DNA of 64,000 nt from Poseidonibacter lekithochrous (GCF_013283835.1 NZ_CP054052.1:1798001-1862000), one strand, 5' to 3'. Counted from the stretch's first letter, positions 17,619-55,478 are shown. A program made the numbers and translations. Notes: a model not told the origin generated them from the sequence alone.

Positions 17619-17631
17619 AAAGAGACTACTT
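17605..17631. terminator. Bidirectional terminator at convergent stops
   Basis: AGTATTCTCTT, loop AAA, AAGAGACTACT. An 11-bp stem with one mismatch, extended by one A-T pair. It spans the stop codons of the HD-GYP gene and of the small gene on the minus strand. Confidence 0.55.
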
Positions 17632-17973
17632 ATCTTTGATACATCTAACTCCATATCTATCGGCTTTATAATACCAAGTATCTCTACCTTCCATAAAATA
17701 AAATGGATAAGCAGCATGTTTATTATCAAGTACTTCATCTCTAGTCCAATAAGACACAGAAATATCAAAACCTTTTATATCAGGTGCTTTATTATTATCA
17801 TCCCATACTTTTTGAAAGACTTTTTTACTAGGAAGTTTTGCTCCTAAATCTTCACAATATTTCATGGCTTCTACCCATTTCATTCTCTTAGGTGCTTCGT
17901 CTAACCAAACAATATCAGCAAAAGCTACATTTGTCAGCAAAACGCCTGCAATTAATAGTTTATTTAATTTCAT
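17626..17973 (-). CDS. Small periplasmic Lcl/DUF1566-like protein
   Basis: 115 residues with a signal peptide (MKLNKLLIAGVLLTNVAFA). The mature part has the DUF1566-type spacing: WVEAMKYCEDLGAKLPSKKVF, then SYWTRDE, then a final YGVRCIKDK. The two cysteines at either end of the domain probably form a disulfide. DUF1566/Lcl domains are found in secreted proteins and have no established activity. It is the last gene of the minus-strand unit with the sulfide-dehydrogenase flavoprotein, 8 bases after it. I infer an accessory periplasmic role there, but nothing proves it. Confidence 0.65.
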   Translation of the reverse strand: MKLNKLLIAGVLLTNVAFADIVWLDEAPKRMKWVEAMKYCEDLGAKLPSKKVFQKVWDDNNKAPDIKGFDISVSYWTRDEVLDNKHAAYPFYFMEGRDTWYYKADRYGVRCIKDK

Positions 17974-17981
17974 ATTTTTCC

Positions 17982-19280
17982 TTATATTCCAAATAAATCA
18001 CTAGTTATACTTGTATACCAATTTTTGGCTGTTAGGTAATTATCACTAGTAATATCTGAACTTTGTGCATAAACTCTTAGTTTATCTTCATATTTGTATT
18101 CATGACTAACCCAAGCAGCTTTGTTTGGGGCTATTATTGAATAACAAACATTTCCCGGTAAATTTGATTTATAATCAAACTCTTTTTTATTTATTCTTTC
18201 GATTAACTCTTTTGCTAATATTAAAGCACATGAATTAGCCATTTGTCCTGATTTTGGATATGGATATTCACCTTGAGCATCTCCAATAACATAAATATCA
18301 TCATCACTTACAGTTCTAAAAGTAGGGCGTTTTAGTTTTACCCATCCTTGTGCATAGGTTTTTATTCCCGCTTTTTTATATAAGTCATTTGCTTTGTTTG
18401 GTGGAATGATTGATAGTTCTTCATACTTTAGAGTGCTAGTAATATATTTATCATTTAATTCATCAAATTTTTTAATTAAAATTTCTTTTTTAGAAAAATC
18501 CACATCTTTAAATCTTGTATTAGGTGTATAAACAATGTAGTCTTTATATATAGTAGAAAAAGCTTCTAGATATGCTTTTGCTTTAGAAGCAGGTTTTGCT
18601 CTTGGGTCAATAATCACAACTTTACCATCAATTTTATTTTCTTTAAAATAGTTAGCAATCATACAAGCTCTCTCATATGGAGCAGGGGGACATTTGTATG
18701 AAGATTTTGGAAGTGTTAATATAAAATTTCCACCTTTAAAATCTGTAATCATTTTTTTAAGTCTTATTATTTCACTTCCCGGTTTTAAACCAGCAGGAGC
18801 TTTGATTAAGGCTTCTTTTGCTTTTTGTTTATCTCTTTTGAATATTTTTTTATAGTTATAATCAATTCCTAAAGCCATAATCATATAGTCATATTTAACT
18901 ACACTTTTATTAGTAATGACTTCTTTTTTATCTCTGTTAATATTTACAACAGTTTCATTTAGAAAATTGTAATTATATTTTATAACTGAACTATTGTAAT
19001 CAAAATTCAATGATTCAAAAGTAATATCTTTGATTCCACCTAACCAGCCATTTGAGAATGGACATGAAATAAAATTAAGATTCTTTTCTATTAGTGTTAC
19101 ATTTAGATTTGGGTTTAATTCTTTTAGATATTTTGCTGTACTAATTCCTGCAAAACCACCGCCTAAAATAAGAATATTAGTTTTACTATTTGATGTAGTA
19201 GAAGCAATAGCATCAATTTTAGTAGAAACTAAAATCGATGCTGTAAATATTGAAAGTTTGAAAAAGTCTCTTCTTTGCAT
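17982..19280 (-). CDS. fccB: FccB-type sulfide dehydrogenase flavoprotein
   Basis: 432 residues. Starts with a twin-arginine-type leader (RRDFFK followed by a hydrophobic stretch), so it is likely exported folded with its FAD. The dinucleotide motif GGGFAGISTAKYL is at about 40. The pair of redox cysteines known from flavocytochrome c sulfide dehydrogenase is present: C197 in YKCPPAPYERAC and C379 in GNVCYSIIAP, with spacing close to the characterised enzyme. The family oxidises sulfide and passes electrons to a cytochrome c subunit. Here no FccA lies next to it, but a monoheme and a 12-heme cytochrome are nearby. SoxF-type or polysulfide-related activity is an alternative. The family is sure, the substrate is inferred. 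Confidence 0.85.
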   Translation of the reverse strand: MQRRDFFKLSIFTASILVSTKIDAIASTTSNSKTNILILGGGFAGISTAKYLKELNPNLNVTLIEKNLNFISCPFSNGWLGGIKDITFESLNFDYNSSVIKYNYNFLNETVVNINRDKKEVITNKSVVKYDYMIMALGIDYNYKKIFKRDKQKAKEALIKAPAGLKPGSEIIRLKKMITDFKGGNFILTLPKSSYKCPPAPYERACMIANYFKENKIDGKVVIIDPRAKPASKAKAYLEAFSTIYKDYIVYTPNTRFKDVDFSKKEILIKKFDELNDKYITSTLKYEELSIIPPNKANDLYKKAGIKTYAQGWVKLKRPTFRTVSDDDIYVIGDAQGEYPYPKSGQMANSCALILAKELIERINKKEFDYKSNLPGNVCYSIIAPNKAAWVSHEYKYEDKLRVYAQSSDITSDNYLTAKNWYTSITSDLFGI

Positions 19281-19292
19281 TAAAAATCCTTT

Positions 19293-19763
19293 TTATGAAA
19301 CACCATTATCTTTTAGGTATTTTTGCCAATCTTTAGCAGTATAATCGCCATTATGTAAACCATCAATAAATTTCATAAACGTAATCATTTGTGCAGGATG
19401 TGCATATCCTGGTAGTTGAAAAATCTTATTCCATTTTTTATCAAACATTACAATATTTGGAGTAGTTTTAGACATAAATGCCATTCTTAATGTTGTAGTT
19501 GTTTCTTGTTTTTTTGTTGTTCCAACTACATAATCTTTTTGATTGTCTTGATTAATAAAATAGATATTAAAACCTTTTGATATCTCTTTCATCTCTTTAT
19601 TTTCTTTAAAATCTTTTTTTAGTAATTCACAATAAGGACATGACTTACTTTCAAAAATAAACATTACGCCTTTACCTTGGGCAATTAATCTAGTTTCATC
19701 ATTGTAAATATCAGCAAATACAGAAACCATAAATAAACTAAGTACTAATAAAATCTTTTTCAT
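19293..19763 (-). CDS. Periplasmic thioredoxin-fold protein with CPYC (SoxW-like)
   Basis: 156 residues with a signal peptide (MKKILLVLSLFMVSVFA). The thioredoxin fold is seen from GVMFIFESKSCPYCELL, with an active CPYC pair as in SoxW and DsbC-like reductases, to the cis-Pro loop KTTPNIVMFD. SoxW proteins keep partner thiols reduced in thiosulfate and sulfur oxidation. The gene follows a second thioredoxin-fold gene by 2 bases and precedes the FccB-like gene by 12, so all are one transcript. A role in reducing the flavoprotein disulfide or apocytochrome cysteines is inferred. Confidence 0.8.
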   Translation of the reverse strand: MKKILLVLSLFMVSVFADIYNDETRLIAQGKGVMFIFESKSCPYCELLKKDFKENKEMKEISKGFNIYFINQDNQKDYVVGTTKKQETTTTLRMAFMSKTTPNIVMFDKKWNKIFQLPGYAHPAQMITFMKFIDGLHNGDYTAKDWQKYLKDNGVS

Positions 19764-19765
19764 AA

Positions 19766-20428
19766 TTAAGCCTTTGTTTTAACGTCAATACCATTATTAA
19801 TGTAATGGTTTTTTAAAGCTTCATAAACTTCGCCATTCTTTCTATCTTTACCTTCCCATTTTTTACTTTCCATAAAGTTAATAGTTTCTAAAAACTGTTT
19901 TGCTGGCATATATCCAGGTACAACAATTACAGCTTTACCATTTTTATCTGTGAAGATTAGGGTAGGTGTTGATTGAACAGCATAGATATTAATCATAGTT
20001 TTTGTATCAACATCCATATAGTCACCCTCATGGAATAGTTTTAATCTTTTGTTTTCATGGGCTTTCAAATAATATGACGAGAAATTATTCATTAATTTGT
20101 CTGTTAATTCTTTTGAGCTTTTAATATCAGCTTTTAATCTATCTGTATAAGGATCTGTATTTGTTCCAAATACTAATAACATATATTTACCCTCAGGACC
20201 AATCTTTGCTATATCTTTAAATACATCATCTACAACTGAATCGTATTTAGTATAAACTATTTTTTTCTCTGGTACTTCTTTTACTCTTTCGTCTGTTTGT
20301 TGTTGTGCAATTTTTGGTTTTTCTTCAACAACTTCTGCTTTTGACTTGCCTTCACTACATCCACTTAATAATATAGTTGATGCAACTAATGATGTGATAA
20401 TTGTTTTACTTAAAAATTTATTTTTCAT
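19766..20428 (-). CDS. Lipoprotein with thioredoxin fold lacking CXXC
   Basis: 220 residues. A lipobox (LLSGC, C24) marks a lipid-anchored protein, followed by a charged linker and then a thioredoxin-like domain (MLLVFGTNTDPYTDRL to STPTLIFTDKNG and PGYMPAKQFLETINF). Where active thioredoxins have CXXC this protein has NTDPYT, so it cannot do dithiol exchange. It may bind a partner or act as a chaperone for the multiheme cytochrome or the CPYC protein encoded next. It is the first gene of the four-gene minus-strand unit downstream of the 12-heme cytochrome gene. The fold assignment is fairly good, the role unknown. Confidence 0.7.
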   Translation of the reverse strand: MKNKFLSKTIITSLVASTILLSGCSEGKSKAEVVEEKPKIAQQQTDERVKEVPEKKIVYTKYDSVVDDVFKDIAKIGPEGKYMLLVFGTNTDPYTDRLKADIKSSKELTDKLMNNFSSYYLKAHENKRLKLFHEGDYMDVDTKTMINIYAVQSTPTLIFTDKNGKAVIVVPGYMPAKQFLETINFMESKKWEGKDRKNGEVYEALKNHYINNGIDVKTKA

Positions 20429-20502
20429 TTTATACCTTCCTTACTAATAATCAAAATTATAATAACTTTTTTGAAATTATCATAAGTTAAATTATTAATG
20501 AA

Positions 20503-20520
20503 AAGAGGATTTCTCCTCTT
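20503..20520 (-). terminator. Hairpin after the 12-heme cytochrome gene
   Basis: AAGAGGA and TCCTCTT pair perfectly around a 4-base loop that reads GAAA on the minus strand, a stable tetraloop. It lies 21 bases after the cytochrome stop and before the thioredoxin-lipoprotein gene. It may terminate or attenuate so that the abundant cytochrome is made in excess over the accessory proteins. Confidence 0.6.
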
Positions 20521-20541
20521 CTCAAATTTTCAAAAGAACTA

Positions 20542-22914
20542 TTATTTTGCTTTAGCAGCTTTAGTAGCCATTTCATGCATTTTTTCAATGTGTTCTTTTA
20601 GGTTTAGTTTTTTGTCCGTGTTTAATTTGTCCCAAATTTCTTTGTTTGACATATTTTGGTGACAACCCATACATAAACCAGTTTTTTCCATTCTTTCTCT
20701 TTGGTCTTGATCAAGAGGTCTTGAATCAGGCCAGTGAGAACCAACAGTTTGAAGTTGTTTTCCATCTCTAGTTACGATTTGCGACCAATCGTAATCCATA
20801 CCTGGAATACCTTTCATTTGAACTGTTTTGTTTTTAGGAACGAATTTACCAGTTTTTAAATCTTGAAGATCCATGTATAAATCTTCACCTTGTTTTTGTA
20901 AGAATTGTCCATCTTGAATACCATAACCTAATGCTTTAGGATTAGAGTGACAAGATTCACAAGTTCTAGCTTTTCTACCAGTTGTGTGTGGTTGAACAGG
21001 TGACATATCCGTACCAGCAACTGTTGATCCATTATCTTGAACTCTAGCTTGTTTATTTAAGATAAGAGTTTTACCATCAGGTCCAATTACAGTAAATGTT
21101 ACTTGACATCCAGGAATTACAGGAGTTACAAGTCCTTCACCATTGATACCTAAAATTGGGTCTTCCCATCTTAAGTAAGATCTAGTTTCACTAGGTTTAC
21201 CAAATAGTTTTTTACCTTTTGTTCCTAAAACAGACTCAGAAGTTTCACCATTTTTTAAGTGTGATGAACCAGATGCAATCCAGTCAATTTTAGATTTACC
21301 AGGAGTATAATCTACTTTTACGTGACAACCATAACATTGTGGAGCCCAATCAGAGTGACAAGCATAACATTCTAAGTTATCCATGTGAGCTTTGATTTCA
21401 CCCATAGCAACGTGTGCTTGTTGTGATTTATATGTTTTTGTATCAGCTTTATATTTTAATAAAGGAACTTCTAGATCTTTACCAGATGCTAAATGAACAA
21501 TTACTTTATTTTTATTTTCAACTTTTACAACGTTTCCTAGTGGGTTACCTCTAGTAGATAATAAATATCCACCTTGTTTATCATAAACTGTACCTTGAGT
21601 CATATAGTATGGTAAATCAGTAGCCATACCTCTTGGACCTTCAGGAGTTTCAATTTTGAAGTTTTCACCGTAACCAACTTTTAACTGCCATGGATATTTA
21701 TCATTTGTACCGTGACAATCTGAACACTCAATTTCAACTTGACCTAATGTAGTACCAAATAATGTACCATCACCATGCATATCAACTGAAGTGTGACAAT
21801 CTTGACAAGTCATACCCGCTTCAAAGTGTAAGTCTTCTTTGATGTGTTTATATCTTTTACCGTGGTGTTTAGATTGAGATTTTCCACCTTCATTTAAAGG
21901 AGAACCATAAGGTTGTTCCATTAAACCAACGTAAGAAACACCAATTCTTTTACCTCTATTGTGACAAGAGTTACAAGTTTCAGGGTGAATACCAGAGAAT
22001 TCCATTCCAGATGGAGTTTTTACTTTAGCTTCTCTTGAACCTTGCATCATATGTACTAACATATGTCCATGTTCTTTTTTATCAATAGTTGGGTCATTAC
22101 CTTCGTAAATACCTTCATTTCCATAAGGCATGTGACAAGCAGAACATCCCATTCCTCTCCAGTCACCTCTACCTTTTCTACCTCTAACACCGATATGACA
22201 TCTCTGACAATCAGATCTTTGGTAAGTAATAGAAGCCATTTCTCCAATTTCTTGTTCTGTTTTACCAGCGAAATCTTCTGGACCACTTGGTGGTAATGGA
22301 AGTTGTTTTAATTCAGTTGGGAATTGATCAGGATATTTATCAATCATTTTAAGCATATAATCTTTATATACTTTTGTTCCCCAAGCTGGTTCTTTACCAT
22401 CTTCATCTTTTACATCATAGTTTGCATATTGAACTTTTTTAGTATCATATGTTCCCCATGTATGCATGTTTCCTTGAATTTTACCAGCTTCAGTCATCAT
22501 TAATGACTTCATAGTATTTTTCACAGTATCAGCATGACAAATACCACATGTTTTATCAGCAACCCACATAGAACCTGGATCTCTAACAAATTCAGCTAAT
22601 CCACCTGCATGACCTGCAGGAGCACCTTTGTGAGCACCTTTTACAGTACCGTCTTCAGGATTACCACCATGACAAACAACACATCCCCCTGTGTCGCCAA
22701 TGCCTTGGCCCATTGCCATTATTTGTTGCATCATATCTGATTTGGTATCTCTAATTGATTCTATGCCTTTATGACATTTAATACATGAGTCACCACCAGA
22801 TACTGCTTCCATTTCTGCCATACCTTTTGAGTGTTCAGCCCCAAAAAGTGTAGAAAATGAAAGTACCGATGCAAATAATGCAATCTTAGCAATTTTACAC
22901 ACTAAGCTTTTCAT
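20542..22914 (-). CDS. Periplasmic dodecaheme cytochrome c
   Basis: 790 residues with a signal peptide ending near GAEHS. There are twelve CXXCH heme sites, in order CIKCH (44-48), CVVCH (78-82), CGICH (123-127), CQRCH, CSACH, CNSCH, CQDCH, CSDCH, CYACH, CYGCH, CESCH and CMGCH (748-752). No CXXCK or long-spaced heme motif of the NrfA or MccA type was found. A heme-free stretch of about 125 residues between the tenth and eleventh sites (GINGEGLVTPVIPGC) could be a substrate or fold-specific domain. A strong AAAGGAGA site precedes the ATG. Neighbours are thioredoxin-fold proteins, an FccB-like flavoprotein and CcsBA. It could be a terminal reductase or oxidase for a sulfur or nitrogen compound, or an electron conduit. 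I do not recognise the exact family. Confidence 0.88.
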   Translation of the reverse strand: MKSLVCKIAKIALFASVLSFSTLFGAEHSKGMAEMEAVSGGDSCIKCHKGIESIRDTKSDMMQQIMAMGQGIGDTGGCVVCHGGNPEDGTVKGAHKGAPAGHAGGLAEFVRDPGSMWVADKTCGICHADTVKNTMKSLMMTEAGKIQGNMHTWGTYDTKKVQYANYDVKDEDGKEPAWGTKVYKDYMLKMIDKYPDQFPTELKQLPLPPSGPEDFAGKTEQEIGEMASITYQRSDCQRCHIGVRGRKGRGDWRGMGCSACHMPYGNEGIYEGNDPTIDKKEHGHMLVHMMQGSREAKVKTPSGMEFSGIHPETCNSCHNRGKRIGVSYVGLMEQPYGSPLNEGGKSQSKHHGKRYKHIKEDLHFEAGMTCQDCHTSVDMHGDGTLFGTTLGQVEIECSDCHGTNDKYPWQLKVGYGENFKIETPEGPRGMATDLPYYMTQGTVYDKQGGYLLSTRGNPLGNVVKVENKNKVIVHLASGKDLEVPLLKYKADTKTYKSQQAHVAMGEIKAHMDNLECYACHSDWAPQCYGCHVKVDYTPGKSKIDWIASGSSHLKNGETSESVLGTKGKKLFGKPSETRSYLRWEDPILGINGEGLVTPVIPGCQVTFTVIGPDGKTLILNKQARVQDNGSTVAGTDMSPVQPHTTGRKARTCESCHSNPKALGYGIQDGQFLQKQGEDLYMDLQDLKTGKFVPKNKTVQMKGIPGMDYDWSQIVTRDGKQLQTVGSHWPDSRPLDQDQRERMEKTGLCMGCHQNMSNKEIWDKLNTDKKLNLKEHIEKMHEMATKAAKAK

Positions 22915-23032
22915 CTCGTCTCCTTTAAATTATTGGGCTCTAAACCCAATTATTGAAAAGTTTAACAAAGTAAAGTGCTTCCAAAGTGCCAATTTATAAT
23001 TTTCATACTAAAAAATTACAATTATTTCATTA

Positions 23033-23046
23033 TTGATTCAAATCAA
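23033..23046. promoter_or_regulatory. FNR/CRP-type palindrome in the divergent promoter region
   Basis: TTGATTCAAATCAA, exactly TTGAT-N4-ATCAA, the classical FNR half-sites. It lies between the 12-heme cytochrome gene (119 bases from its ATG) and the thioredoxin-cytochrome operon (76 bases from its ATG), so it could control both in response to oxygen or a related signal. The regulator is not encoded in this window. Confidence 0.6.
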
Positions 23047-23121
23047 TTTTTTTTAGAATAAAAAAGTATAGAGTATAAAAAAGTGCGACAAAAACACTTA
23101 TATTTTACAAAGGCAATAAAA

Positions 23122-23613
23122 ATGAAAAAATTATTATTTCTTCTATTTATGATTATATCGTGCTTAAGCGCTGAAGATGAATGGAAAAAAGGTTTAGACT
23201 GGCAACATGAATTTGATGAAGCAGTACAGCTTGCAAATTATCATAATAAACCAATTTTTATGTTTTTAGAATCAAGAACTTGTTTTTATTGTCCCAAATT
23301 AAAAGAAGAAATTTTTAATCAAAAAGAATTTCAAGAAAAAATAAAAAAATATTTTATACCAGTAATATTAGATAATTCATTAGATGCTGATTCGGATGTA
23401 GAAAATACAGGACAATGTCCTCCAAGACTAACTGTATCTATGACACCTGCAATATATTTTATGGGACCAAATGAAGAGAAGTTATCAAGAAAAGGCAAAA
23501 AACATATGATTATTTATGGAATGTGGGACCTTAAACAGATGTTAGAGTGGATGGATGATGCCATTAAAAAATTTGAAAAACTTCATGGAGCTAAATATGA
23601 TTTTAAAAAATAA
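23122..23613 (+). CDS. Periplasmic thioredoxin-fold protein with CFYC
   Basis: 163 residues from ATG 23122, chosen because it begins a standard signal peptide (MKKLLFLLFMIISCLSA) and has AAAGG 8-9 bases upstream; the open frame is 13 codons longer. The thioredoxin-like domain has PIFMFLESRTCFYCPKLK with a CXXC pair, then PVILDN and the MTPAIYFMG cis-Pro loop. This is the thioredoxin_7 or DsbD-gamma-like type. It is the first gene of an operon divergent from the 12-heme cytochrome gene, with the monoheme cytochrome overlapping its end. Probable role: reducing disulfides in apocytochromes or a sulfur enzyme. Third thioredoxin-fold gene of this locus. Confidence 0.78.
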   Translation: MKKLLFLLFMIISCLSAEDEWKKGLDWQHEFDEAVQLANYHNKPIFMFLESRTCFYCPKLKEEIFNQKEFQEKIKKYFIPVILDNSLDADSDVENTGQCPPRLTVSMTPAIYFMGPNEEKLSRKGKKHMIIYGMWDLKQMLEWMDDAIKKFEKLHGAKYDFKK

Positions 23614-23968
23614 AACTACACTGCTATGTATAGTAATTCTTATGCTTTCATTTACAAATTTAAATGCAGCTAAAAAAAGAGGTGCTTATGCTACAAAAAA
23701 TATTATTGGACAAAGCTTTTATTTAAAAGCATGTTCTTCTTGCCATGGAGAGGGTAGTCGTGGTGGAAATATGGCTTCAATTAGAGAATGGAAAGAGCTA
23801 TTTGCAAAGAATGCTTTTGAACTAAAAGATTTACATACAGACGATGAAGAAACACTATTAGTAATTGAGTATTTTAACTCAGATGAGTTCCAAATCCAAA
23901 AAGTAGATTTATTGGATTTTTTACAAGAATTTGCATATGATTCAGAGAATATTCCTACTTGTAATTAA
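23597..23968 (+). CDS. Periplasmic monoheme cytochrome c
   Basis: 123 residues from ATG 23597, which has GGAG 6 bases upstream and starts a signal peptide (MILKNKTTLLCIVILMLSF). It overlaps the previous gene by 17 bases. One heme site, CSSCHGEG, follows the GQSFYLKAC lead-in, as in short class I c-type cytochromes; no clear downstream methionine ligand is visible, so the second axial ligand is uncertain. It could be the electron acceptor for the FccB-like flavoprotein encoded on the other strand, in place of a fused FccA, or a shuttle to the 12-heme protein. This is inference from location. Confidence 0.8.
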   Translation: MILKNKTTLLCIVILMLSFTNLNAAKKRGAYATKNIIGQSFYLKACSSCHGEGSRGGNMASIREWKELFAKNAFELKDLHTDDEETLLVIEYFNSDEFQIQKVDLLDFLQEFAYDSENIPTCN

Positions 23969-24003
23969 GATTTACTTATGGTAATTATAAGCAAATATAA
24001 GTG

Positions 24004-24009
24004 TATAAT
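24004..24009 (+). promoter_or_regulatory. -10 promoter element for the two-component operon
   Basis: TATAAT 35 bases before the response-regulator ATG, with an AAGGAG ribosome-binding site 4 bases ahead of that ATG. Gives the regulators their own promoter apart from the upstream cytochrome. Confidence 0.5.
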
Positions 24010-24044
24010 AAAAGAAAAATTACAAATAGTGACTAAGGAGTTAC

Positions 24045-24701
24045 ATGAAAATTTTACTTTTAGAGGACGATAACTTTATCTGTGAATCTATAAAAAGTTA
24101 TTTTGAACTAGATGGAAATAAGGTAGATTTTTTTAATGATGGAGAAGAATTATTAGACAATGCAATTCTTACAAATTATGATATATTTCTTTTTGATATT
24201 AATACTCCAAAAAAAAATGGTTTTGAAACATTAAAAGCCATTAGAGACGATGGAATAAGTACTCCTGCAATTTATTTAACTGCACAAAGTGATATTGAAC
24301 ATGTAAAACAAGGTTATGCTTTAGGCTGTAGTGATTATGTTCGAAAGCCTTTTATTTTAGATGAACTAGAACTTAGAATCAACCAAATTTTACATAAAGA
24401 TTTAGACTCTGACAATGTAAAAATAACAGAATCTTATAGCTTTAATTTGTGCTCAATGCAATTAGCTTTTGAAGGTGAGAGCATAGATTTAAAACAACAA
24501 GAAAAAGATTTATTATATATTTTAGTAAAAAATATAGGAAATATCGTAAGTCCTAGTATTATAAAAGATTATGTTTGGGATGAAAAAGATGTTTGTGATA
24601 ATACCCTAAGAACTCAAATAAAAAAAATTAGAACTAAACTAAAAGAAAATTTTATTGTTAATATTAGAAACTCTGGTTACAAGATAGAAAAGAATGCTTG
24701 A
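24045..24701 (+). CDS. OmpR-family response regulator
   Basis: 218 residues. Receiver domain (1-115) with E7/D8/D9, phospho-acceptor D51 in FLFDINTP, the threonine in YLTAQSD and lysine in YVRKPF. A winged-helix DNA-binding domain follows (about 130-215; KQQEKDLLYILV, then CDNTLRTQIKKIRTKL and NSGYKIE). It overlaps the kinase gene behind it by 8 bases, so the two form a cognate pair. Its likely targets are the cytochrome and thioredoxin operons on either side, judged only by position. Confidence 0.92.
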   Translation: MKILLLEDDNFICESIKSYFELDGNKVDFFNDGEELLDNAILTNYDIFLFDINTPKKNGFETLKAIRDDGISTPAIYLTAQSDIEHVKQGYALGCSDYVRKPFILDELELRINQILHKDLDSDNVKITESYSFNLCSMQLAFEGESIDLKQQEKDLLYILVKNIGNIVSPSIIKDYVWDEKDVCDNTLRTQIKKIRTKLKENFIVNIRNSGYKIEKNA

Positions 24702-26478
24702 GATAAATAAACTATCTAAAGAAAATAGAAACTTTGGAATTAAATTATTTTTCTCTTATATAGTTTTTACAGTTTTATTAATAGCTTCTATTACTGCAAT
24801 TCATATTTATTTTTCTCAAGATCTAGTAGCTAATAAATTTCAGAGAGAAGTAAAATTACAAAGTGGAGAAAAAAAAGATAAATTTGATAAGTTTTTCCAA
24901 TCAAAAAAAGATGAATTACAAGCCATTGCAAAGAATGAATACTTTCTTAATTATGTAGAAGAGGGCTCATATAAATACTATATTGATTTACTTTTATTAA
25001 CAATAATGGAATCAAATAAAGATTATATGCAAATTAGATATATAAATGAGAAGGGTTTTGAAGTACTAAGATTTGATAGAGAAAAACACTCAAAAGAACC
25101 ATATAAGTCTAAAACACTACAAAATAAATCAAATAGATATTACTTTAAAAATGTATCAAAAATGAAAAATAAAGATGTTTGGTTCTCAGATATTGATTTA
25201 AATGTAGAACATGGACATATAGAAGTGCCAAATAAACCAGTTATTCGAGTAGCAACTCCAATGTTTATAAAAAATAAATTTAAAGGTATTTTAATTGTTA
25301 ATATCTTTATGCAAGAACTACTTGAAAGTATTACAAACTCTGCTTTATATGATATTTATTTAGTTAATAGCAATGGATATTATTTAAGACATAAAAATAG
25401 TGAATTTAACTGGTCCTTTTATAATTCTAAAAAAAGAGTATCTGATGACTTTAGTGATGAACTTGTGAATAAAATAAAAAATGAAGATAAAAACTTTGTA
25501 TTTCATAAGAATATTTTTGTACAACCTTTATATTTAAATAAACAAAAAATATCAATGATAATGCTTGAAAAAGACGAATCTATTGAACAAGTTGAAAATA
25601 ACAACAATACTATGATTATTACTATTTTAATTTTTGCAACTCTAATGTCAATACTATTTACATTTCTTTTTACAAGAGTACCAAAGTCACTTTTTGAGTT
25701 TGCCGTAGCTCAATCAGATGAATTACATGATTTAGCAACAAATTTAGATAATAAAGTAATTTTAAAAACTCTAGAAGTAGCAAAAAAAGATAGATTATTA
25801 CAAAACCAAAGTAAACTTGCAGAACTAGGAGATATGATTGGTAATATCGCTCATCAATGGCGACATCCTTTAACAAGATTATCACTAACTTTACAAAATC
25901 TAAGAGCTTATAAAAGAAAAAATAGAATGAGTGATGAAATGTTTGATGAAGCATTAGAAAATTCACTATATCAAATCGAATTTATGTCTACAACAATTGA
26001 TAACTTTAAAAACTTTTATAAAAAAGATGAAGAAAAATCTGATTTTATTGTGAAAGAATCAGTTGATAATGTACTTAATATTATTGGAGCAGTTCTTGAA
26101 CATAGCAATATTAAATTACATATTGAATCAAAAGAAGAAATCACAATACACGGAAACAAAAATGAGTTCTCACAGGTTCTAATGAATCTTATAATTAATG
26201 CTAAAGATGCAATAGATGAGAATAAAATTGAAAATGCAAAAATAGATATTATTATAGAAAAAGAAGAAGAGAAAATTAAAATCATTGTTAAAGATAATGC
26301 AGGAGGTGTTCCTTCTTGTTTAATAGAAGAGATATTTAATCCTTACTTTACTACAAAAGAAGATAAAGGAACAGGAATTGGTCTTTATTTATCAAAAGCA
26401 ATTATTGAAGATAAATTAAATGGTAAATTAACAGTACATAATGACGAAAATGGTGCTGTATTTACCATTTATATATAG
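24694..26478 (+). CDS. Membrane histidine kinase with dCache-type periplasmic sensor
   Basis: 594 residues. First membrane segment about 18-40, a long periplasmic region to about 300 with Cache-like elements (YMQIRYINEKGFEVLRFDR, IRVATPMF, DIYLVNSNGYYLRH), second membrane segment about 305-325, then a kinase core with H387 in IAHQWRHPLTR, N box NLIINAKDAI and GTGIGLYLSK. It pairs with the response regulator it overlaps. The large extracytoplasmic sensor suggests detection of a small dissolved compound, possibly the substrate of the adjacent cytochrome system. The ligand is unknown. Confidence 0.87.
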   Translation: MLEINKLSKENRNFGIKLFFSYIVFTVLLIASITAIHIYFSQDLVANKFQREVKLQSGEKKDKFDKFFQSKKDELQAIAKNEYFLNYVEEGSYKYYIDLLLLTIMESNKDYMQIRYINEKGFEVLRFDREKHSKEPYKSKTLQNKSNRYYFKNVSKMKNKDVWFSDIDLNVEHGHIEVPNKPVIRVATPMFIKNKFKGILIVNIFMQELLESITNSALYDIYLVNSNGYYLRHKNSEFNWSFYNSKKRVSDDFSDELVNKIKNEDKNFVFHKNIFVQPLYLNKQKISMIMLEKDESIEQVENNNNTMIITILIFATLMSILFTFLFTRVPKSLFEFAVAQSDELHDLATNLDNKVILKTLEVAKKDRLLQNQSKLAELGDMIGNIAHQWRHPLTRLSLTLQNLRAYKRKNRMSDEMFDEALENSLYQIEFMSTTIDNFKNFYKKDEEKSDFIVKESVDNVLNIIGAVLEHSNIKLHIESKEEITIHGNKNEFSQVLMNLIINAKDAIDENKIENAKIDIIIEKEEEKIKIIVKDNAGGVPSCLIEEIFNPYFTTKEDKGTGIGLYLSKAIIEDKLNGKLTVHNDENGAVFTIYI

Positions 26479-26488
26479 AAGGGTATTT

Positions 26489-27085
26489 ATGTTAGGAAAA
26501 AAGTTTTTATGTAGTTCTATACTTTGTTTTAGCACTTTATTTGCAAATGATTGTAGTCCTTACTACAATCCGGACAAGTTCTATGAAACGCCAGAGTATT
26601 TACAAGAGTTAATGGATACAAGTCTAAAAGGAAAAACACTTTTTGGCGAAGTATCTGAATATAAAAGTTTAAACTTCACAAAAGATTCAAGTAATAAATA
26701 TACTAATAAATCAATAAAACTAAAAGATTATAAATTCCCAAAACAAAGTGGTTTATATAGTTATAAAATAAAAAATAAACATATTGATGAAATAGAAATA
26801 GCAACTGTAAATTTATATAGATATACAGATGTAGAAATTGCAGAAGAAATAAACAATGATTTTGAGGGTTTTTGGTCAGATTGGATTGAAGATGGATATG
26901 AAATGCAATTAGTTCCTGAGCAAATTTTATTAAAATATAATGATAAGTATTTTACTTTTTCTGTATTTATTTATGGAGTAAAAGGTGATACAACTAGACT
27001 AGAAGGTACAAGTATTAAATACTGGATGAAAGATTATACAATCCAAGTTAATGAATATATAGAGTGCTCAAAAAAGAAGAAGTAA
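26489..27085 (+). CDS. Secreted protein of unknown function linked to the kinase
   Basis: 198 residues from ATG 26489, which has AAGGG upstream and opens a signal peptide (MLGKKFLCSSILCFSTLFA); the frame starts earlier inside the kinase gene but without support. The mature protein has CSPYYNPDKFYETPEYL and a mixed strand-helix body ending in IECSKKKK, with two cysteines (near residues 22 and 193) that may form a disulfide. It lies 10 bases after the kinase stop, so it is probably in its operon. It may be a periplasmic ligand-binding partner. I recognise no family. Confidence 0.65.
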   Translation: MLGKKFLCSSILCFSTLFANDCSPYYNPDKFYETPEYLQELMDTSLKGKTLFGEVSEYKSLNFTKDSSNKYTNKSIKLKDYKFPKQSGLYSYKIKNKHIDEIEIATVNLYRYTDVEIAEEINNDFEGFWSDWIEDGYEMQLVPEQILLKYNDKYFTFSVFIYGVKGDTTRLEGTSIKYWMKDYTIQVNEYIECSKKKK

Positions 27086-27101
27086 TTTAATTACTTCTTC
27101 T
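27075..27101. terminator. Bidirectional terminator at convergent stops
   Basis: AGAAGAAGTAAT, loop TTA, ATTACTTCTTCT: a perfect 12-bp stem covering the end of both convergent genes. The last codons of both proteins are part of the hairpin. Confidence 0.65.
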
Positions 27102-28065
27102 CAAAGATAAATAGATGTTTATCTAAATTCTCAAAATAGTATGTTTTTACTTCAAAAATATTTGTATCTCTTTTTTCAAAATCATAAAGTTCTATTTCGT
27201 GTAAACCTTTTGAAAAGAGGGTAGTTTTTAAAGTTTCTAATTCTTTTGAATTATGTTTAATTAATTGGAAAAAATCACCCTTTGTTTCATCCCATAACTC
27301 TTTTATTATATCAGTGCCTAGAAAGTCTCTAAAGGCTTTATTTATACAATACAGTTGTTTATGTATGAAAGTCACAATATACACAGGTGAACTATCTATA
27401 ATCTCTTGCATTAAGTTGTTTTGCTCTTCAAGTTCTTTTATGTGAGAAGAGAAGTTTGATTCATTCTTATTTATATTTTCACTAAGATTTAATTTATAAC
27501 CATAATTTCTTTTATGTAAAATCAAATCATTATTAGTTTTCTTCCTAATTCTATTTATAATAGTTCTTACACTTGTTTGACTTTGTAATTGCAAAATACC
27601 TACTAAAGTATTTGTATTTACATAATTTTGTGAGTTTATTGCATTTAATAGGGCAAACTCTTGCAGAGTTAATTTAATATTTTCTTCATTTGTTTTTATA
27701 GTTTTTGATTCAAAATTTAATATCATTTCATCATTGAGTTCAAGAGTTTTTTCTTTTTTGTCTTTAATTAAAAACTTTATCCATGAAATTAATTCATTTG
27801 AAGAAAAGTTTGTTTTTAAAAAGTATGGGAAATCATTTTGTAAACATAAAGTTATCTCTTCATCATTATTTACAATAAAAAGTAGTTTAGAATATTCTTT
27901 TCTATTTTTATATGATAAAAGTGATGTTTTACTAAGCGTAGAAGCGTCTATAAGCCAAAAATCTACTTCTTGGATATGAATAGACTCATTCATATCCAAA
28001 GAAGTAAATATAGTGTTTGCTTTGTTTATAATATCTTTATTATTGGAAACTATTTTATAATTCAT
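27091..28065 (-). CDS. Atypical regulator: pseudo-receiver, winged helix, PAS
   Basis: 324 residues. The first 100 residues resemble a receiver (DFWLIDAS at the phospho-site, YFLKTNF at the lysine), but the acidic pair near residue 8 is replaced by SNN, so normal phosphorylation is unlikely. An OmpR-type winged helix follows (about 115-200; LTLQEFALLNAI, then QTSVRTIINRIRKK and RNYGYKLN). The C-terminal part is a PAS domain (about 215-324; MQEIIDSSPVYIVTFI, CINKAFRDFLG). A PAS behind the DNA-binding domain of an OmpR-type protein is unusual. It may sense a ligand or redox state directly and control the cytochrome genes next to it. Confidence 0.72.
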   Translation of the reverse strand: MNYKIVSNNKDIINKANTIFTSLDMNESIHIQEVDFWLIDASTLSKTSLLSYKNRKEYSKLLFIVNNDEEITLCLQNDFPYFLKTNFSSNELISWIKFLIKDKKEKTLELNDEMILNFESKTIKTNEENIKLTLQEFALLNAINSQNYVNTNTLVGILQLQSQTSVRTIINRIRKKTNNDLILHKRNYGYKLNLSENINKNESNFSSHIKELEEQNNLMQEIIDSSPVYIVTFIHKQLYCINKAFRDFLGTDIIKELWDETKGDFFQLIKHNSKELETLKTTLFSKGLHEIELYDFEKRDTNIFEVKTYYFENLDKHLFIFEKK

Positions 28066-28085
28066 AGTTTAAAGTATATCAACTA

Positions 28086-28805
28086 TTATGGTTCTTGTCT
28101 AGTTGCTGTAATTACTAATTCTCTAATACAAACATTTTGTGGTTGGTTATATACAAATTCAATTGATCTTGCAATATCTTCAGGAACAATAACACCATTC
28201 ATAGATTCTTTCCAAGCTTCATAACCTTTGATAATCTCTTCGCTAGTTGTATGAGATAATAATTCAGTTTCAACAGCACCAGGAGCAATTGTGATAACTC
28301 TAACATCATTTGCAGCTACTTCTTCTCTTACGTTTTCACTAATTGCATGAACTGCAAATTTAGTACCACAATAAGCAGCGTGGGCTGGGAATGTTTTTTT
28401 ACCTGCAACAGATGAAATATTTATAATAGTTCCACCTTTTCGCTCTTTCATATCTGGTAACACTGCTTGCATTGCATTTAATACAGCCATTACATTTAAG
28501 TCATACATTTTTTGCCACTCACTAATATCTTGAGTATCAATAGAACCTAATAACATTGCTCCCGCATTGTTTACTAAACAAGCAGTTTTTCCGTAAACTT
28601 CTTCTGCATTTTTAATAGCTACTCTTAGTGCATCAAAATCTGTAACATCTACTTTTGCACAAATCGCATTTGGTAAATTTAATGCTTCAAGTTTTTCAAT
28701 TCTTCTTGCAATTAATAAAAGAGGGTGTCCTGCATTTGAAAATGCTTTTGCAGTAGCTTCACCAATTCCTGAGCTTGCACCTGTTATTACTATTAGTTCT
28801 TTCAT
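28086..28805 (-). CDS. Short-chain dehydrogenase (YdfG-like NADP-dependent oxidoreductase)
   Basis: 239 residues. Classical SDR with cofactor motif TGASSGIGEAT, LVNNAGAM, the catalytic serine in ISSVAGKK and the YCGTK pair. The RR after the second strand (LLIARRIEKL) favours NADP. Similar proteins of the YdfG type reduce serine, 3-hydroxy acids or malonic semialdehyde, but the substrate cannot be read here. AAGGA precedes the ATG by 7 bases. Two tandem copies of an 11-base repeat lie about 45 bases upstream and may be its control site. No clear link to the cytochrome genes around it. Confidence 0.85.
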   Translation of the reverse strand: MKELIVITGASSGIGEATAKAFSNAGHPLLLIARRIEKLEALNLPNAICAKVDVTDFDALRVAIKNAEEVYGKTACLVNNAGAMLLGSIDTQDISEWQKMYDLNVMAVLNAMQAVLPDMKERKGGTIINISSVAGKKTFPAHAAYCGTKFAVHAISENVREEVAANDVRVITIAPGAVETELLSHTTSEEIIKGYEAWKESMNGVIVPEDIARSIEFVYNQPQNVCIRELVITATRQEP

Positions 28806-28849
28806 TATTAATCCTTAAATATTTTATATAAAGAATTATAATTTATTAT

Positions 28850-28871
28850 ACGTTTCAAAAACGTTTCAAAA
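28850..28871. repeat. Tandem 11-base repeat upstream of the SDR gene
   Basis: ACGTTTCAAAA occurs twice without a gap. On the minus strand this is TTTTGAAACGT twice, about 45 bases before the SDR start. One helical turn spacing suits two subunits of a DNA-binding protein. Confidence 0.4.
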
Positions 28872-28913
28872 AATTTAGATTATTGTTTGGGAAGGAAGAG
28901 AGGAGTTAAAGGT

Positions 28914-28943
28914 AAAAACCTAAGAATTACTTCTTAGGTTTTT
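28914..28943 (-). terminator. Terminator of the ccsBA gene
   Basis: A perfect 13-bp stem (AAAAACCTAAGAA with its complement) around a 4-base loop that contains the ccsBA stop codon. The T-run is formed by the end of the stem. The stem core CCTAAGA also occurs in the terminator behind the chemoreceptor gene. Confidence 0.75.
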
Positions 28944-31686
28944 GGTTTTCTTCGTGACAGATAGAATCTTTTAAATCACGTTTTCTATAAGCTACTAGTA
29001 TTGTTATAATCACTAATGATGTAAGTACGTAAGCCCATGTAGGAATTGGTACAGGATCTCCTGTAGCATATGAATGCATTCCTGATAAATAGAAGTTTAC
29101 TCCTAAATATGTCATTAAAATTGTAGAGAAAGCTAATAATGCAGATACTACTAAAGTAAATGGATTATTAAGTTTTTTAACAAATCTCATATGGATAACT
29201 AAAACATAAACAACAATTGATACGTATGCCCATGTCTCTTTTGGATCCCATCCCCAGTATCTACCCCAAGACTCGTTAGCCCAGATACCACCAAGGAAGT
29301 TACCAATTGTAATTGCGGCAACACCAATAATAAGAGCAATTTCAGTAATTGCTGCAATATTTTTGATTGTTTCATCTAAATGTGGTCTAGATGGACTTCT
29401 AAAGATAAATAAGATTAATGCTAAGTAAGAAATTACAGCAGCTAATCCAAAGAATCCATAAGATGCAGTTAAAATTGATACGTGAATTGTTAACCAGTAA
29501 GATTTAAGTACTGGAACTAAGTTCGTAATTTGTGGATCAATACCTGCTAAGTGTGCAGTAAACATGAAAATACCACCAACAATAATAGCGGCACTTAGTG
29601 CAAGTAATGATTTTCTAAAGAACATAACCCCTGCAAACACAGCAGACCATGAAATATATAACATTGATTCATAAGTATTAGACCAAGGAGCATGTCCGGC
29701 TACCACCCATCTGAATCCCATACCAAAGGTATGTACTGCAAACAGCAATGATAAAATTATAAAGAAGAACACAGTAGTTTTTCTTGGTTGGATCTTTGGA
29801 TTAAATACTACAATAAATGCAGCAATTAACATAATAAGACCAAAGATAATATATGCAACAGTTAATTTAATAAAGATATCTAATTCATTAAAATAGATTT
29901 CATTATTTACTTCTGTTTTACTTAAGATTACATCAGCTCCAACTTTTTCTTGGTATAAAGCAATCATATCTACAAATTTATTAGCTTCTTGCCAATCCAT
30001 TTGGATTACAGCGTTAATAAAACCTCTAGTCATTGCTTCAACAGCTGGTTGACTTTTCCCTGTAAAAGTTTTCATCGCGTCTAAAGGTGTATGCCATGTA
30101 TTAGCAGTATCTCTAGGTTTTGGGAAGATATTAAATAAGTTACCATTAAATGTTGCATAAACAATATTTAATTTTTCATCTAATTTTATAATATCTTTTT
30201 CGTATGTTCCTCTATCTGTTGGTTTAGACATAGAAGCTTTTTCAGCCTCTTTGCTTAGTACATACGTACCATCAACAAATACTTCAGAGAATGCAATTAA
30301 TTTTCTCTCTTTTTCAATTCCTAAAAAGTTTTTTAGTTTTGGAGTTTTAATTTTAATGATTTTTAAATCTCTCCAAATTTCTGGTCTAGATAATAAACCT
30401 AAAACAATTTGATCTGAGTTCATTCCAAATAAAGATTTTTTACCACTTAACTTCATGATAATTTCTCTATTTAAAGTAGAAACTGGTTTCATTCTTCCTG
30501 ATTGACTTTGTGTTACTAATCTAGAGAATTTCTCAGCAGTTTCTAATGAACCACTTTTGAATTTATTTAAATATTCAACAGTTTGTTGTGCTTTTGTTTG
30601 CTCGTTTACTTGTTCATTTGCTTCTAATGAAGTTGAACCAAAAGCGATAAAACATGCTACAGCAATTGATGCTAGGTTTCTTGAACTTACATATTTAGTT
30701 AATTTCCAGAATCTAGATTTTTTATCGAAGAAATTCAGGAATAAACCTAAAGTTAATAAGAAATATCCTAAGTATGTTGGCCATTTTCCTGGGTCATTAT
30801 TAACAGATAATACAGTTCCTGTTTCATCTGGGAAATATGAACTTTGGAAAAATAAGAAGTTTCCTTCATGTAATGTTTTGTTCATGAAAATTCTATAATC
30901 ATAAGATTTACCATTCTCTTTAGTAACTGTAACTTCAGATGCATAAGATGATGGTGACATACTTCCTGGGTATCTATCTAGTTGGAAGTCGTTTAAAGTA
31001 ATTCTAAATGGTAAAGTTAAAACTTTTGAACCATATTCTAAAGCAACAATAGTATCTCCAAAAGATAAATCTCTTCTAATACTTTTTTGTCCTCTTTTAC
31101 CTGGTAATTTAATCTCTTTAGTCTCACCATTGTGTGAAACATCCAAAGTTAACATTCCCATAGAGGCATTTCCATTTTTAGCTAACATATAATTTTTATA
31201 TTTTAAGTTAACTTCTTTTTCACCAAAAAGTACTTTGTTCTCAAAGTCATTTACTGTTGTAAAAACTGTAGTAAATTCTTTTTGATACTCTTTGTAGTAT
31301 GTTTTGCCCTTGTCTTTAATAGTAATTTGTAAGTATGGCTCAAGAGAAATCATTCTATTTTCAGTTGTACCTTCTTTGATTTGCATGATACCTTCGTATC
31401 CTACATATCTAGTAACACCTGCACCTATTAAAATTACAACAAATGAGATGTGAAATATAAATCTAGGTTTGTTTTTCCACATTTTATATTTAAATATTAT
31501 ACCTGTCATATTAATGGTAGTTAACACTAATATTACTTCGTACCAAATTGTGTTATATACTAAAACTCTAGCCGAGGAAGTACCAAAATCATTTTCAATA
31601 AATGTGGCATAACCAGCTCCGATTGCTAAAATAGCAAGTAAGATTAATGTAGTCTTAAAAGAAAATAAGACACTTGTAGTTTTCAA
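28927..31686 (-). CDS. ccsBA: Fused cytochrome c synthase CcsBA
   Basis: 919 residues. Fused system II heme exporter and ligase that attaches heme to CXXCH motifs outside the membrane, as usual in Campylobacterota. The N-terminal CcsB/ResB part has four membrane segments and a large periplasmic loop; the CcsA part carries the tryptophan-rich heme motif WGRYWGWDPKETWAY and conserved histidines (MGFRWVVAGHAPW, VLVIHMRF). The start is TTG at 31686, with AAAAGGA 6 bases upstream; a TTG 18 bases further 5' is in frame but lies before that site. Its closeness to a 12-heme cytochrome suggests a dedicated or main maturation factor. A hairpin covers the stop. Confidence 0.93.
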   Translation of the reverse strand: MKTTSVLFSFKTTLILLAILAIGAGYATFIENDFGTSSARVLVYNTIWYEVILVLTTINMTGIIFKYKMWKNKPRFIFHISFVVILIGAGVTRYVGYEGIMQIKEGTTENRMISLEPYLQITIKDKGKTYYKEYQKEFTTVFTTVNDFENKVLFGEKEVNLKYKNYMLAKNGNASMGMLTLDVSHNGETKEIKLPGKRGQKSIRRDLSFGDTIVALEYGSKVLTLPFRITLNDFQLDRYPGSMSPSSYASEVTVTKENGKSYDYRIFMNKTLHEGNFLFFQSSYFPDETGTVLSVNNDPGKWPTYLGYFLLTLGLFLNFFDKKSRFWKLTKYVSSRNLASIAVACFIAFGSTSLEANEQVNEQTKAQQTVEYLNKFKSGSLETAEKFSRLVTQSQSGRMKPVSTLNREIIMKLSGKKSLFGMNSDQIVLGLLSRPEIWRDLKIIKIKTPKLKNFLGIEKERKLIAFSEVFVDGTYVLSKEAEKASMSKPTDRGTYEKDIIKLDEKLNIVYATFNGNLFNIFPKPRDTANTWHTPLDAMKTFTGKSQPAVEAMTRGFINAVIQMDWQEANKFVDMIALYQEKVGADVILSKTEVNNEIYFNELDIFIKLTVAYIIFGLIMLIAAFIVVFNPKIQPRKTTVFFFIILSLLFAVHTFGMGFRWVVAGHAPWSNTYESMLYISWSAVFAGVMFFRKSLLALSAAIIVGGIFMFTAHLAGIDPQITNLVPVLKSYWLTIHVSILTASYGFFGLAAVISYLALILFIFRSPSRPHLDETIKNIAAITEIALIIGVAAITIGNFLGGIWANESWGRYWGWDPKETWAYVSIVVYVLVIHMRFVKKLNNPFTLVVSALLAFSTILMTYLGVNFYLSGMHSYATGDPVPIPTWAYVLTSLVIITILVAYRKRDLKDSICHEENQKPKK

Positions 31687-31731
31687 AAAAAATCCTTTTC
31701 TCAAAATTGAACGTAATTATATTCATAAGTG

Positions 31732-32808: not shown

Positions 32809-32828
32809 AATTAAAATAATTCTATTGT
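32802..32828. terminator. Bidirectional terminator between cmoB and GGDEF gene
   Basis: ACAATAGAATTA, loop AAA, TAATTCTATTGT: a perfect 12-bp stem that contains both stop codons. Confidence 0.65.
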
Positions 32829-33785
32829 ATCTTCATCTTTAAGTTCACTGTGTTTAAATAAGATACTTCTACCTTTATTTTTTGCTTCATAAAGAGCAAT
32901 ATCAGCATTTTTTATTGCATCTGTAATTGTATCATCTGAATTTGCTTTAAATATTTCAAAACCAATACATACAGTCTTTTTAAGAGTTTGTTTAGTCTCT
33001 TCATTAACTAATATCTTAATTTTTGCAAAATCATTAATTATTTTTTCTGCTACATCTGTTGCATTATATTCACTTGAATTACTGATAATTGATACTAAAA
33101 ACTCATCAGCATTTAATCTAGCAACCATATCAAATTCATTAATGTTACTATGAATAACTTTTGCAAGTTCAATTAATAGTTTATCAGATACATCATAATC
33201 AAATTCATCAATTACAGCTTTGAAATGATCAATTCCAATCATTAAAAAATAAATTTCATTTTGTTTATTATTAGAAATAGTTAAATGTTTTGTTAAATTA
33301 TCAATTAAATAGTTTCTATTATAAACTTTTGTTACAGAATCTAAAGAAGATGATTCTATAAAATTCTTTTTTAGAATACCACTTTGAATAATTGGTGATA
33401 TTTGAAAAAAAGCAGCTTCAATAGTTTCATATTTAGCTTGAAGTACTTGATAGTGTACATTAGATGTGGCACAAAAAGATACTGTAGCATTAATATTTGT
33501 ATGTGTATTGATAATAAAGAAATATGATTTATCATCATCTAAATAGAATTCTTCACCTTCTACATATATTTCTTCTCTTGAATTTGTATTAATATCAAAT
33601 AATGCAAAAGTCAAATTATCTATATTAAACTCTTTATGTAACCAAGAGTAAATATCTTCACCCATTTGTTTTATATTTGTCGAGAACTGTAACTGTTCAT
33701 ATAATGAAAAGATACTCTCTAATGATTTGTAATCATCTTCACTATGGGCAGCTTTTTTAATAAGTTCTAATATTTTATGTTTCAT
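32811..33785 (-). CDS. GGDEF-domain protein with degenerate signature (NADEF)
   Basis: 324 residues. An N-terminal GAF-like region (about 20-150; FNIDNLTFALFDINT) is followed by a GGDEF domain (about 165-315; SVTKVYNRNYLIDNL, then ARLNADEFLVSI, ADIALYEAKNKGR). The active signature GGDEF is NADEF here, losing the second glycine needed for GTP binding, so diguanylate cyclase activity is doubtful. It may bind substrate or partner instead. The gene follows its paralogue by 9 bases in one operon. Confidence 0.82.
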   Translation of the reverse strand: MKHKILELIKKAAHSEDDYKSLESIFSLYEQLQFSTNIKQMGEDIYSWLHKEFNIDNLTFALFDINTNSREEIYVEGEEFYLDDDKSYFFIINTHTNINATVSFCATSNVHYQVLQAKYETIEAAFFQISPIIQSGILKKNFIESSSLDSVTKVYNRNYLIDNLTKHLTISNNKQNEIYFLMIGIDHFKAVIDEFDYDVSDKLLIELAKVIHSNINEFDMVARLNADEFLVSIISNSSEYNATDVAEKIINDFAKIKILVNEETKQTLKKTVCIGFEIFKANSDDTITDAIKNADIALYEAKNKGRSILFKHSELKDEDTIELF

Positions 33786-33794
33786 AATTTTTGC

Positions 33795-34697
33795 CTAAAA
33801 AAAATCTATACTATTTGCATCTTCTTCAATATATTTGAAGCTTTTGCTTCTTCCCAAATTTTTTGCTTCATATAAAGCAATATCTGTTTTTCTAATAATA
33901 TCATCTATCTCTAAAGCATCATCGGGGAATACAGTAATTCCTGCACAAATAGTCTTTTTAAGTACTTGCTCTGTTTGTTTATTTACTAACACTTTTTCTT
34001 CACTGAAATTATTAATAATTTTTTCAGATATCATTATAGCATTATCAGTATTAATAATATTCATTAAAATAACTAAAAATTCATCTCCATCAATTTTAAC
34101 AACTATATCAGAAGATCTAACTGTTGTTTTTAGAATATCAGCTAAGGCTTTAAGTACTTTATCTCCTACATTGTAGTCAAATTCATCAATTACTGCTTTA
34201 AATTGATCAATACCAATTTTAAGGAATGCAACTTTTTTTGACTCACGATTTGAAATATTTAGAATATTTCCAGCGTAGTTATCAAGATAATGTCTATTAT
34301 AAAGTCCTGTTACATTGTCAATTAATGTTAAATCATTTAATGTCTCATTTAAAAGTCTAATAAAAATAGTTTGTGAGAAAACTTGTAAAGCCAAGTCTAA
34401 TACACATCTGTTTTCTATTAAATAACTCTCATCTTCATATGAACAAATAACTTTTATTTTAGTATTTTCATTTTGAATTAACTCAAAAATATTGTGCTCT
34501 TCTACATCAATATTTTTTACAGAAGCAAAAATAACCTCTTCTGATCTTTCGTCTACTCTTATAACTGAGATAATTATATCTGTGATCTTAAACTCAAGTT
34601 TAAGGTACTCTAAAATTGTATTACATGTATCTTCTATCGTTTTAGTATTCTTTAAATTTAAATTTTGTTTCGCAATAATTTCACAAACTTCGCTCAT
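33795..34697 (-). CDS. GGDEF-domain protein, probable diguanylate cyclase (DGDEF)
   Basis: 300 residues, paralogue of the downstream gene. GAF-like N-terminal half (about 25-130), then a GGDEF domain with NVTGLYNRHYLDNYAG, VKIDGDEFLVIL and TDIALYEAKNLGR. The signature is DGDEF; the second glycine and the acidic pair are kept, so it may still make c-di-GMP from GTP. No inhibitory RxxD site is evident just before the signature. Together with the paralogue it suggests a pair of an active and an inactive enzyme. Confidence 0.82.
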   Translation of the reverse strand: MSEVCEIIAKQNLNLKNTKTIEDTCNTILEYLKLEFKITDIIISVIRVDERSEEVIFASVKNIDVEEHNIFELIQNENTKIKVICSYEDESYLIENRCVLDLALQVFSQTIFIRLLNETLNDLTLIDNVTGLYNRHYLDNYAGNILNISNRESKKVAFLKIGIDQFKAVIDEFDYNVGDKVLKALADILKTTVRSSDIVVKIDGDEFLVILMNIINTDNAIMISEKIINNFSEEKVLVNKQTEQVLKKTICAGITVFPDDALEIDDIIRKTDIALYEAKNLGRSKSFKYIEEDANSIDFF

Positions 34698-55342: not shown

Positions 55343-55478
55343 CAAATATCCTATTAAAACAAATTATTATTTGTTTATTTAATTATTAAACAGAATATTA
55401 TTATAAGTAAATAAATAAGAGATTAATTATTGTAACTTAATGAAATTTTTATGATGAAATAACAAAATTAATTAATAA

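Follow-up and report, generated by a model that had tools for sequence, protein, structure and literature searches.

The 64,000-nucleotide stretch of Poseidonibacter lekithochrous DNA analyzed here (hereafter the window) corresponds to positions 1798001-1862000 of a genome of 3.57 Mb in a single contig. It carries a gene for a dodecaheme cytochrome c, termed MHC12, among genes for thioredoxin-fold proteins and a two-component system, which the original prediction had grouped with a flavoprotein, a further regulator and a heme ligase into one sulfur-linked electron chain around a new multiheme enzyme. The principal features, numbered from the first letter of the window, are:

20542..22914, minus strand: MHC12, a periplasmic dodecaheme c-type cytochrome of 790 aa with a signal peptide and 12 CXXCH motifs
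19766..20428, minus strand: Trx2, a thioredoxin-fold lipoprotein (PF13098)
19293..19763, minus strand: Trx1, a CPYC thioredoxin-fold protein (PF13098)
24045..24701, plus strand: OmpR-type response regulator (Response_reg, 74.9 bits; Trans_reg_C, 52.2 bits)
24694..26478, plus strand: sensor histidine kinase with a periplasmic Cache-type sensor (PF21623, HisKA, HATPase_c)
22972..22989, minus strand: tandem direct repeat GCACTTT-GGAA-GCACTTT with an 11-bp period, proposed as the operator at which the response regulator acts on MHC12
22932..22951, minus strand: small hairpin predicted in the leader of MHC12, where it separates the operator from the ribosome-binding site (single-sequence folds)
23122..23613, plus strand: Trx3, a CFYC thioredoxin-fold protein (Thioredoxin_7/DsbH-like), in a divergent operon with cytc1
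23555..23968, plus strand: cytc1, a monoheme cytochrome c with a conserved C-terminal cysteine (DSEN/HIPTCN)
23033-23046, plus strand: FNR-like palindrome TTGATTCAAATCAA in the trx3-cytc1 promoter
28927..31704, minus strand: CcsBA heme ligase (Cytochrom_C_asm and ResB)

The MHC12 open reading frame holds exactly 12 CXXCH motifs, and it and the other listed genes lie where the original prediction had placed them; the predicted monoheme cytochrome and two-component system are likewise present. The sensor domain of the kinase resembles 3lid/2p7j (E 1e-10). Searching with the kinase gave 76 matching places in its own genome, which is thus rich in sensor kinases. The extreme C-terminal cysteine of cytc1 (IPTCN/IPSCN) is kept in nearly all relatives seen.

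Judged by homology, MHC12 is a member of an uncharacterised family. Pfam recognized only generic multiheme domains, profile and PDB searches found no described enzyme family containing it, and the PDB holds no sequence relative at E<0.4, the best phmmer match having E 0.42. We found 455 relatives in a collection of genome contigs. The best 80 of the 455 share 46-100% identity with MHC12 and are labelled in that collection as Campylobacterota, Pseudomonadota, Deinococcota, Thermodesulfobacteriota, Myxococcota, Nitrospirota, Nitrospinota, Bacteroidota, Chlorobiota and Poribacteria. The open reading frame of the metagenome-derived 'Arcobacter sp. UBA7394' (L007) is essentially identical, and copies in relatives of the same genus or family are 85-89% identical. 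A match of some kind occurs in 60/397 Campylobacterota genomes: clade A, which holds the window's MHC12 (67-89% identity, 13 genomes), clade B (about 45-50% identity) and a third group of remote ExtM-type proteins. Clades A and B separated in a tree that placed ExtM on a very long branch, the tree being built by a quick method that raised long-branch warnings. In three Campylobacterota loci (L144, L149, L151), ExtM-ExtN is clustered with a PhsA-like Mo enzyme and with FeS, NrfD-type and b-type cytochrome subunits, and L151 has a rhodanese too. No published description of the MHC12 gene cluster was found, subscription papers lying outside the search.

We then compared the neighbours of MHC12 in 35 clade-A loci, some of them near-duplicates within species, with counts taken over loci with enough flanking DNA. 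A conserved neighbourhood in other Campylobacterota, which the original prediction had named as its own test, does exist. Trx2 and Trx1 lie beside MHC12 in 32/32 loci, the response regulator within 6.5 kb in 29/29 and the kinase nearby in 25/25; Trx3 is found in 22/29 and cytc1 in 20/26. Gene order is kept across genomes labelled Arcobacter, Sulfurospirillum, Nitratifractor and Campylobacteraceae. The conserved core of the Campylobacterota module is therefore MHC12, Trx2, Trx1 and the regulator-kinase pair, often (about 75%) with Trx3 and cytc1. In most clade-B genomes MHC12 stands alone between housekeeping genes, with no thioredoxin-fold, two-component or CcsBA genes beside it. In other phyla, the genes following MHC12 encode a TPR lipoprotein and a protein of no assigned family; alternatively, a tetraheme cytochrome, a DsrO-like and a DsrP-type protein (380 bits, above cut-off) may precede it, or PhsA-like Mo enzymes lie nearby.

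Upstream of MHC12, the tandem box GCACTTT-N4-GCACTTT is present in 35/35 clade-A regions, a few of which are re-fetched copies of one genome; 26 are exact and the rest carry 1-3 mismatches. The exact box has one copy in its own genome, which is also the sole one in the window, the reversed-control version has no copy in that genome, and shuffles of the window give 0.58 expected sites even when two mismatches are allowed. OmpR-type regulators usually target tandem repeats of 11 bp, and the box has that period, lies upstream of the gene and is conserved together with the regulator; we infer that the response regulator binds it at the MHC12 promoter. Among the 397 Campylobacterota genomes, 48 have the exact box, including 11 of the 13 clade-A MHC12 genomes, in 10 of which it lies just upstream of MHC12. 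In G355, MHC12 runs to a contig end and the box is beside Trx3 near the end of another contig; G270 and G340 have the box with 1-2 mismatches. In other genomes the exact box precedes orthologues of the regulator-kinase pair (regulator 50-52% identical) and an operon for an NrfH-like tetraheme cytochrome, a thioredoxin, CcsBA and hemA/E/B/C/N (G049, G095 and G309; partly G015 and G013). These placements tie this type of regulator to genes for cytochromes and their maturation. MccA or HaoA had been considered as the end points of the other boxed operons and were rejected, since these operons lead to hemA/E/B/C/N. A further idea was that the two-component system is the sulfite-responsive regulator of Wolinella's mcc genes; the papers found gave no description of that regulator. 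G389 has an exact box ahead of a PhsA-like gene, and in G388, a genome without the kinase, it falls within a coding gene, so chance copies exist. As a separate observation, G296 (L199) has a two-component pair, its regulator 68% identical, which has two boxes and drives an RND efflux operon as well as a YyaL-type thioredoxin protein; this boxed unit sits between nusB and mqnC, the place of clade-B MHC12 in sister genomes.

The leader hairpin is predicted in most relatives, with the stems TTGGG/CCCAA, TTGAG/CTCAA, TTAGG/CCTAA and GAGGAT/ATCCTC; as stem sequences differ and pairing is often kept, the pairing itself appears to be maintained. The FNR-like palindrome TTGATTCAAATCAA had been predicted as a single site between the two halves of the region, and it is indeed the only exact match in the window. 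By chance 0.45 such sites are expected per 64 kb (at least one in 36/100 shuffles), so the site is not remarkable alone. It is kept with 0-1 mismatch in relatives that have trx3-cytc1 and lost in L004 and L139, which lack the pair. On this basis trx3-cytc1 is assigned the FNR-like site, and MHC12 the tandem box as an operator of its own.

We examined the heme anatomy of MHC12 in an alignment of 74 sequences. Each of them keeps the full set of 12 heme motifs, with CX3CH or CX4CH at heme 1 and heme 3 in some relatives. Outside the motifs, histidines 95, 284 (kept in 71/74), 288, 351, 363, 380, 474, 510, 643, 727 and 775 are conserved, as are Met61, Met139, Met504 and Cys603, the last being the one further non-heme cysteine of the mature part. 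The 11 invariant or near-invariant histidines and Met139 are candidate distal ligands, so every one of the 12 distal heme positions could be filled; this assignment was made by conservation rather than from model coordinates. In a 10-heme branch of three proteins, hemes 10 and 12 are gone together with His351, His775 and Cys603, which fits the ligand bookkeeping and would put Cys603 functionally near hemes 10/12. All 12 motifs are CXXCH and none is a special catalytic motif (CX15CH or CXXCK), nor is there a sequence relation to MccA/NrfA/OTR-type reductases. With ligands enough for 12 hemes, a heme-site enzyme is not indicated.

Three thioredoxin-fold proteins had been predicted as SoxW-like sulfur partners. 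All three are real (PF13098/PF13899), with the CXXC kept in only two of them: Trx1 (CPYC) and Trx3 (CFYC). Trx2 reads TDPY, having lost the motif in this lineage, and aligns with CPYC in vent relatives. Rather than sulfur partners, they look like apocytochrome c reductants. The Mcc/Nrf-type cytochrome operons of Wolinella have a dedicated CcsBA. MHC12 resembles these in that its gene is linked to CcsBA in several vent relatives, and differs in having 12 ordinary hemes and in lying in a genome with one detected CcsBA copy. CcsA1/NrfI are named in PMC4460558. The closest solved relative of Trx1 is H. pylori HP0377 (4fyb, E 2e-16; annotated DsbC, CcmG-type), and Trx1 shares the thioredoxin fold and reactive CXXC of the CcmG/ResA/HP0377 reductants. 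As a CcmG, HP0377 reduces apocytochrome c, and its gene is co-transcribed with ccsBA (PMC4460558, PMC4491210, PMC5909903). The likeness extends to gene order, ccsBA directly following trx1 in several vent relatives; the differences are that Trx1 is linked to one multiheme cytochrome gene and has a second thioredoxin fold, Trx2, beside it. Trx1, with Trx2, probably serves MHC12 maturation. The predicted CcsBA is confirmed as a heme ligase. It was rejected as a module-specific one, being the only copy detected in the genome, and is here a general helper and not part of the module. CcsBA is found in 12/35 clade-A loci.

The region holds four further genes:

17982..19280, minus strand: FccB-like flavoprotein (PF21706, 85 bits), a lineage-specific addition in Arcobacter relatives
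17626..17973, minus strand: small secreted Lcl_C-like protein (PF07603, below cut-off)
26489..27085, plus strand: secreted protein beside the kinase, with no family match
27091-28065: winged helix-turn-helix (wHTH) protein, the domain scoring below the Pfam cut-off

FccB aligns over its full length to flavocytochrome c sulfide dehydrogenases (5n1t, E 1e-46; 1fcd, E 7e-42), and, as predicted, it retains both redox cysteines of these enzymes (C197 in YKCPPAPYERA, C379 in NVCYSIIAP). It thus shares with FccAB/SoxF the FccB fold, the central domain of these dehydrogenases and both cysteines. It differs from them in being confined to few species of the group, namely close Arcobacter relatives (4/24 clade-A loci). 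No FccA-type cytochrome adjoins it; its neighbours are Trx1 and the Lcl-like protein, whose gene is the last of the operon in Arcobacter relatives and occurs in 5/21 loci. The secreted protein next to the kinase is kept in 6/35. The predicted wHTH-PAS regulator has no PAS domain detected by Pfam, and neither it nor the SDR gene, once considered a member too, was found at any of the 35 loci, so both were rejected. The membership originally listed is therefore not supported for FccB, wHTH-PAS or CcsBA. Elsewhere in the window, a PhnI gene (40623-41687) marks a probable phosphonate degradation cluster around 38-45 kb, a 1047-aa protein (52202-55345) has no Pfam match at E 1e-5, and two tandem GGDEF-like proteins (32811-34697) are mutually similar by eye. 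New here are the actual core of the module and its operator, together with the maturation reading and the spread of the family.

The best explanation, which we hold to be fairly probable, is a respiratory unit under two-component control, built around MHC12 as a periplasmic carrier with its own maturation helpers. The Cache-type kinase would detect a signal in the periplasm, and the OmpR-type regulator would bind the tandem box and switch on MHC12-trx2-trx1(-fccB). The exported MHC12 apoprotein, with 24 heme-binding cysteines and the extra invariant Cys603, would be kept reduced by Trx1 (the CcmG/HP0377-type reductant), aided by Trx2, before CcsBA attaches the 12 hemes. Mature MHC12 would then most likely be a fully hexacoordinated electron carrier, a wire or hub, that exchanges electrons with the divergently encoded, FNR-boxed cytc1 and sits between cytc1 or other cytochromes and a further donor or acceptor. 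In Arcobacter relatives only, the FccB-type sulfide-oxidising flavoprotein may exchange electrons with it as well. Several points weigh against this carrier reading. Trx1 and Trx2 are paralogues and could cross-match in the census, and at L139 Trx2 is the sole thioredoxin-fold open reading frame beside MHC12. The lone clade-B genes imply that the family can do without the helpers. Binding of the regulator to the box is a reading of the sequence, and if Cys603 or another methionine were a heme ligand, one heme could be left free for catalysis. The AlphaFold model of MHC12 (pLDDT 78, pTM 0.82) was built without heme, and Foldseek with structural re-alignment found no usable PDB fold match for it.

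An alternative is that MHC12 is a respiratory sulfur-compound enzyme whose active site is Cys603 or, as in SoxA/TsdA, a Cys-ligated heme, with the thioredoxins and FccB handling persulfide-type intermediates. We consider this unlikely. Cys603 is invariant in the 74 sequences and in four ExtM relatives, and is lost along with two hemes in the 10-heme branch; that co-loss would be a single evolutionary event, however, and not proof. The ordinary motifs and the sufficiency of the 11 histidines and Met139 for all distal positions also argue against such an enzyme. Links to sulfur stem from other superfamily branches, through DsrO/DsrP-like operons, PhsA-like Mo enzymes and the rhodanese in Campylobacterota ExtM clusters, and from FccB in a few Arcobacter relatives; SoxB and the Sox system are encoded elsewhere in the same genome. 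By analogy with these contexts a sulfur role of MHC12 is plausible. Against it, FccB is missing from 20/24 loci with room, clade-B genes lack sulfur neighbours, and a maturation role suits Trx1 better. The 'new multiheme enzyme' and 'sulfur-linked' chain of the original prediction stay conjectural, since the conserved ligands are enough for all 12 hemes and the links to sulfur lie in other branches and in the FccB of a few species. The fuller proposal, in which MHC12 would be the first member described from a widespread family of dodecaheme respiratory enzymes, with an invariant active-site cysteine, a sulfur substrate and a dedicated substrate-sensing two-component switch, seems to us slightly less likely again.

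It is improbable, in our view, that MHC12 belongs to a conduit passing electrons out of the cell to minerals or electrodes, as proposed for Geobacter ExtM, its nearest named relative (NF040943). The ExtM profile covers most of MHC12 with 227.8 bits (186 bits in the genome search), well short of the curated membership cut-off of 800 bits. The 12 heme motifs align one to one and the PGCQV cysteine is common to both; in contrast, MHC12 has 790 aa vs about 600 aa, most distal histidines are not the same, and MHC12 has different neighbours and forms a separate clade. The Geobacter ext genes encode 12-, 10- and 5-heme cytochromes and a porin (PMC5877670), ExtM homologues are present in cable bacteria (PMC11976967), and electrochemically active Arcobacter strains exist (PMC6724507). 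However, none of the ext context genes (the ExtI porin, ExtKL, ExtN, ExtO/ExtP) nor any other outer-membrane partner was recognised in clade-A gene maps. MHC12 has no lipobox and is only 24-26% identical to the Campylobacterota ExtM, which is separately present, as an ExtM-ExtN pair, even in G340, a genome that carries MHC12. That the genes are neighbours sharing co-regulation only, with MHC12 acting alone as its lone clade-B counterparts would suggest, is very improbable given the order kept across several Campylobacterota-labelled groups and the common operator.

With a conserved operator and an adjacent sensor, the MHC12 electron pathway should respond to whatever the kinase detects, which may also be its substrate. 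It also seems, from this module, that a multiheme cytochrome can come as a unit with maturation helpers of its own. Finally, about 50% identity with 12 hemes fixed across many phyla indicates that MHC12 does something important.

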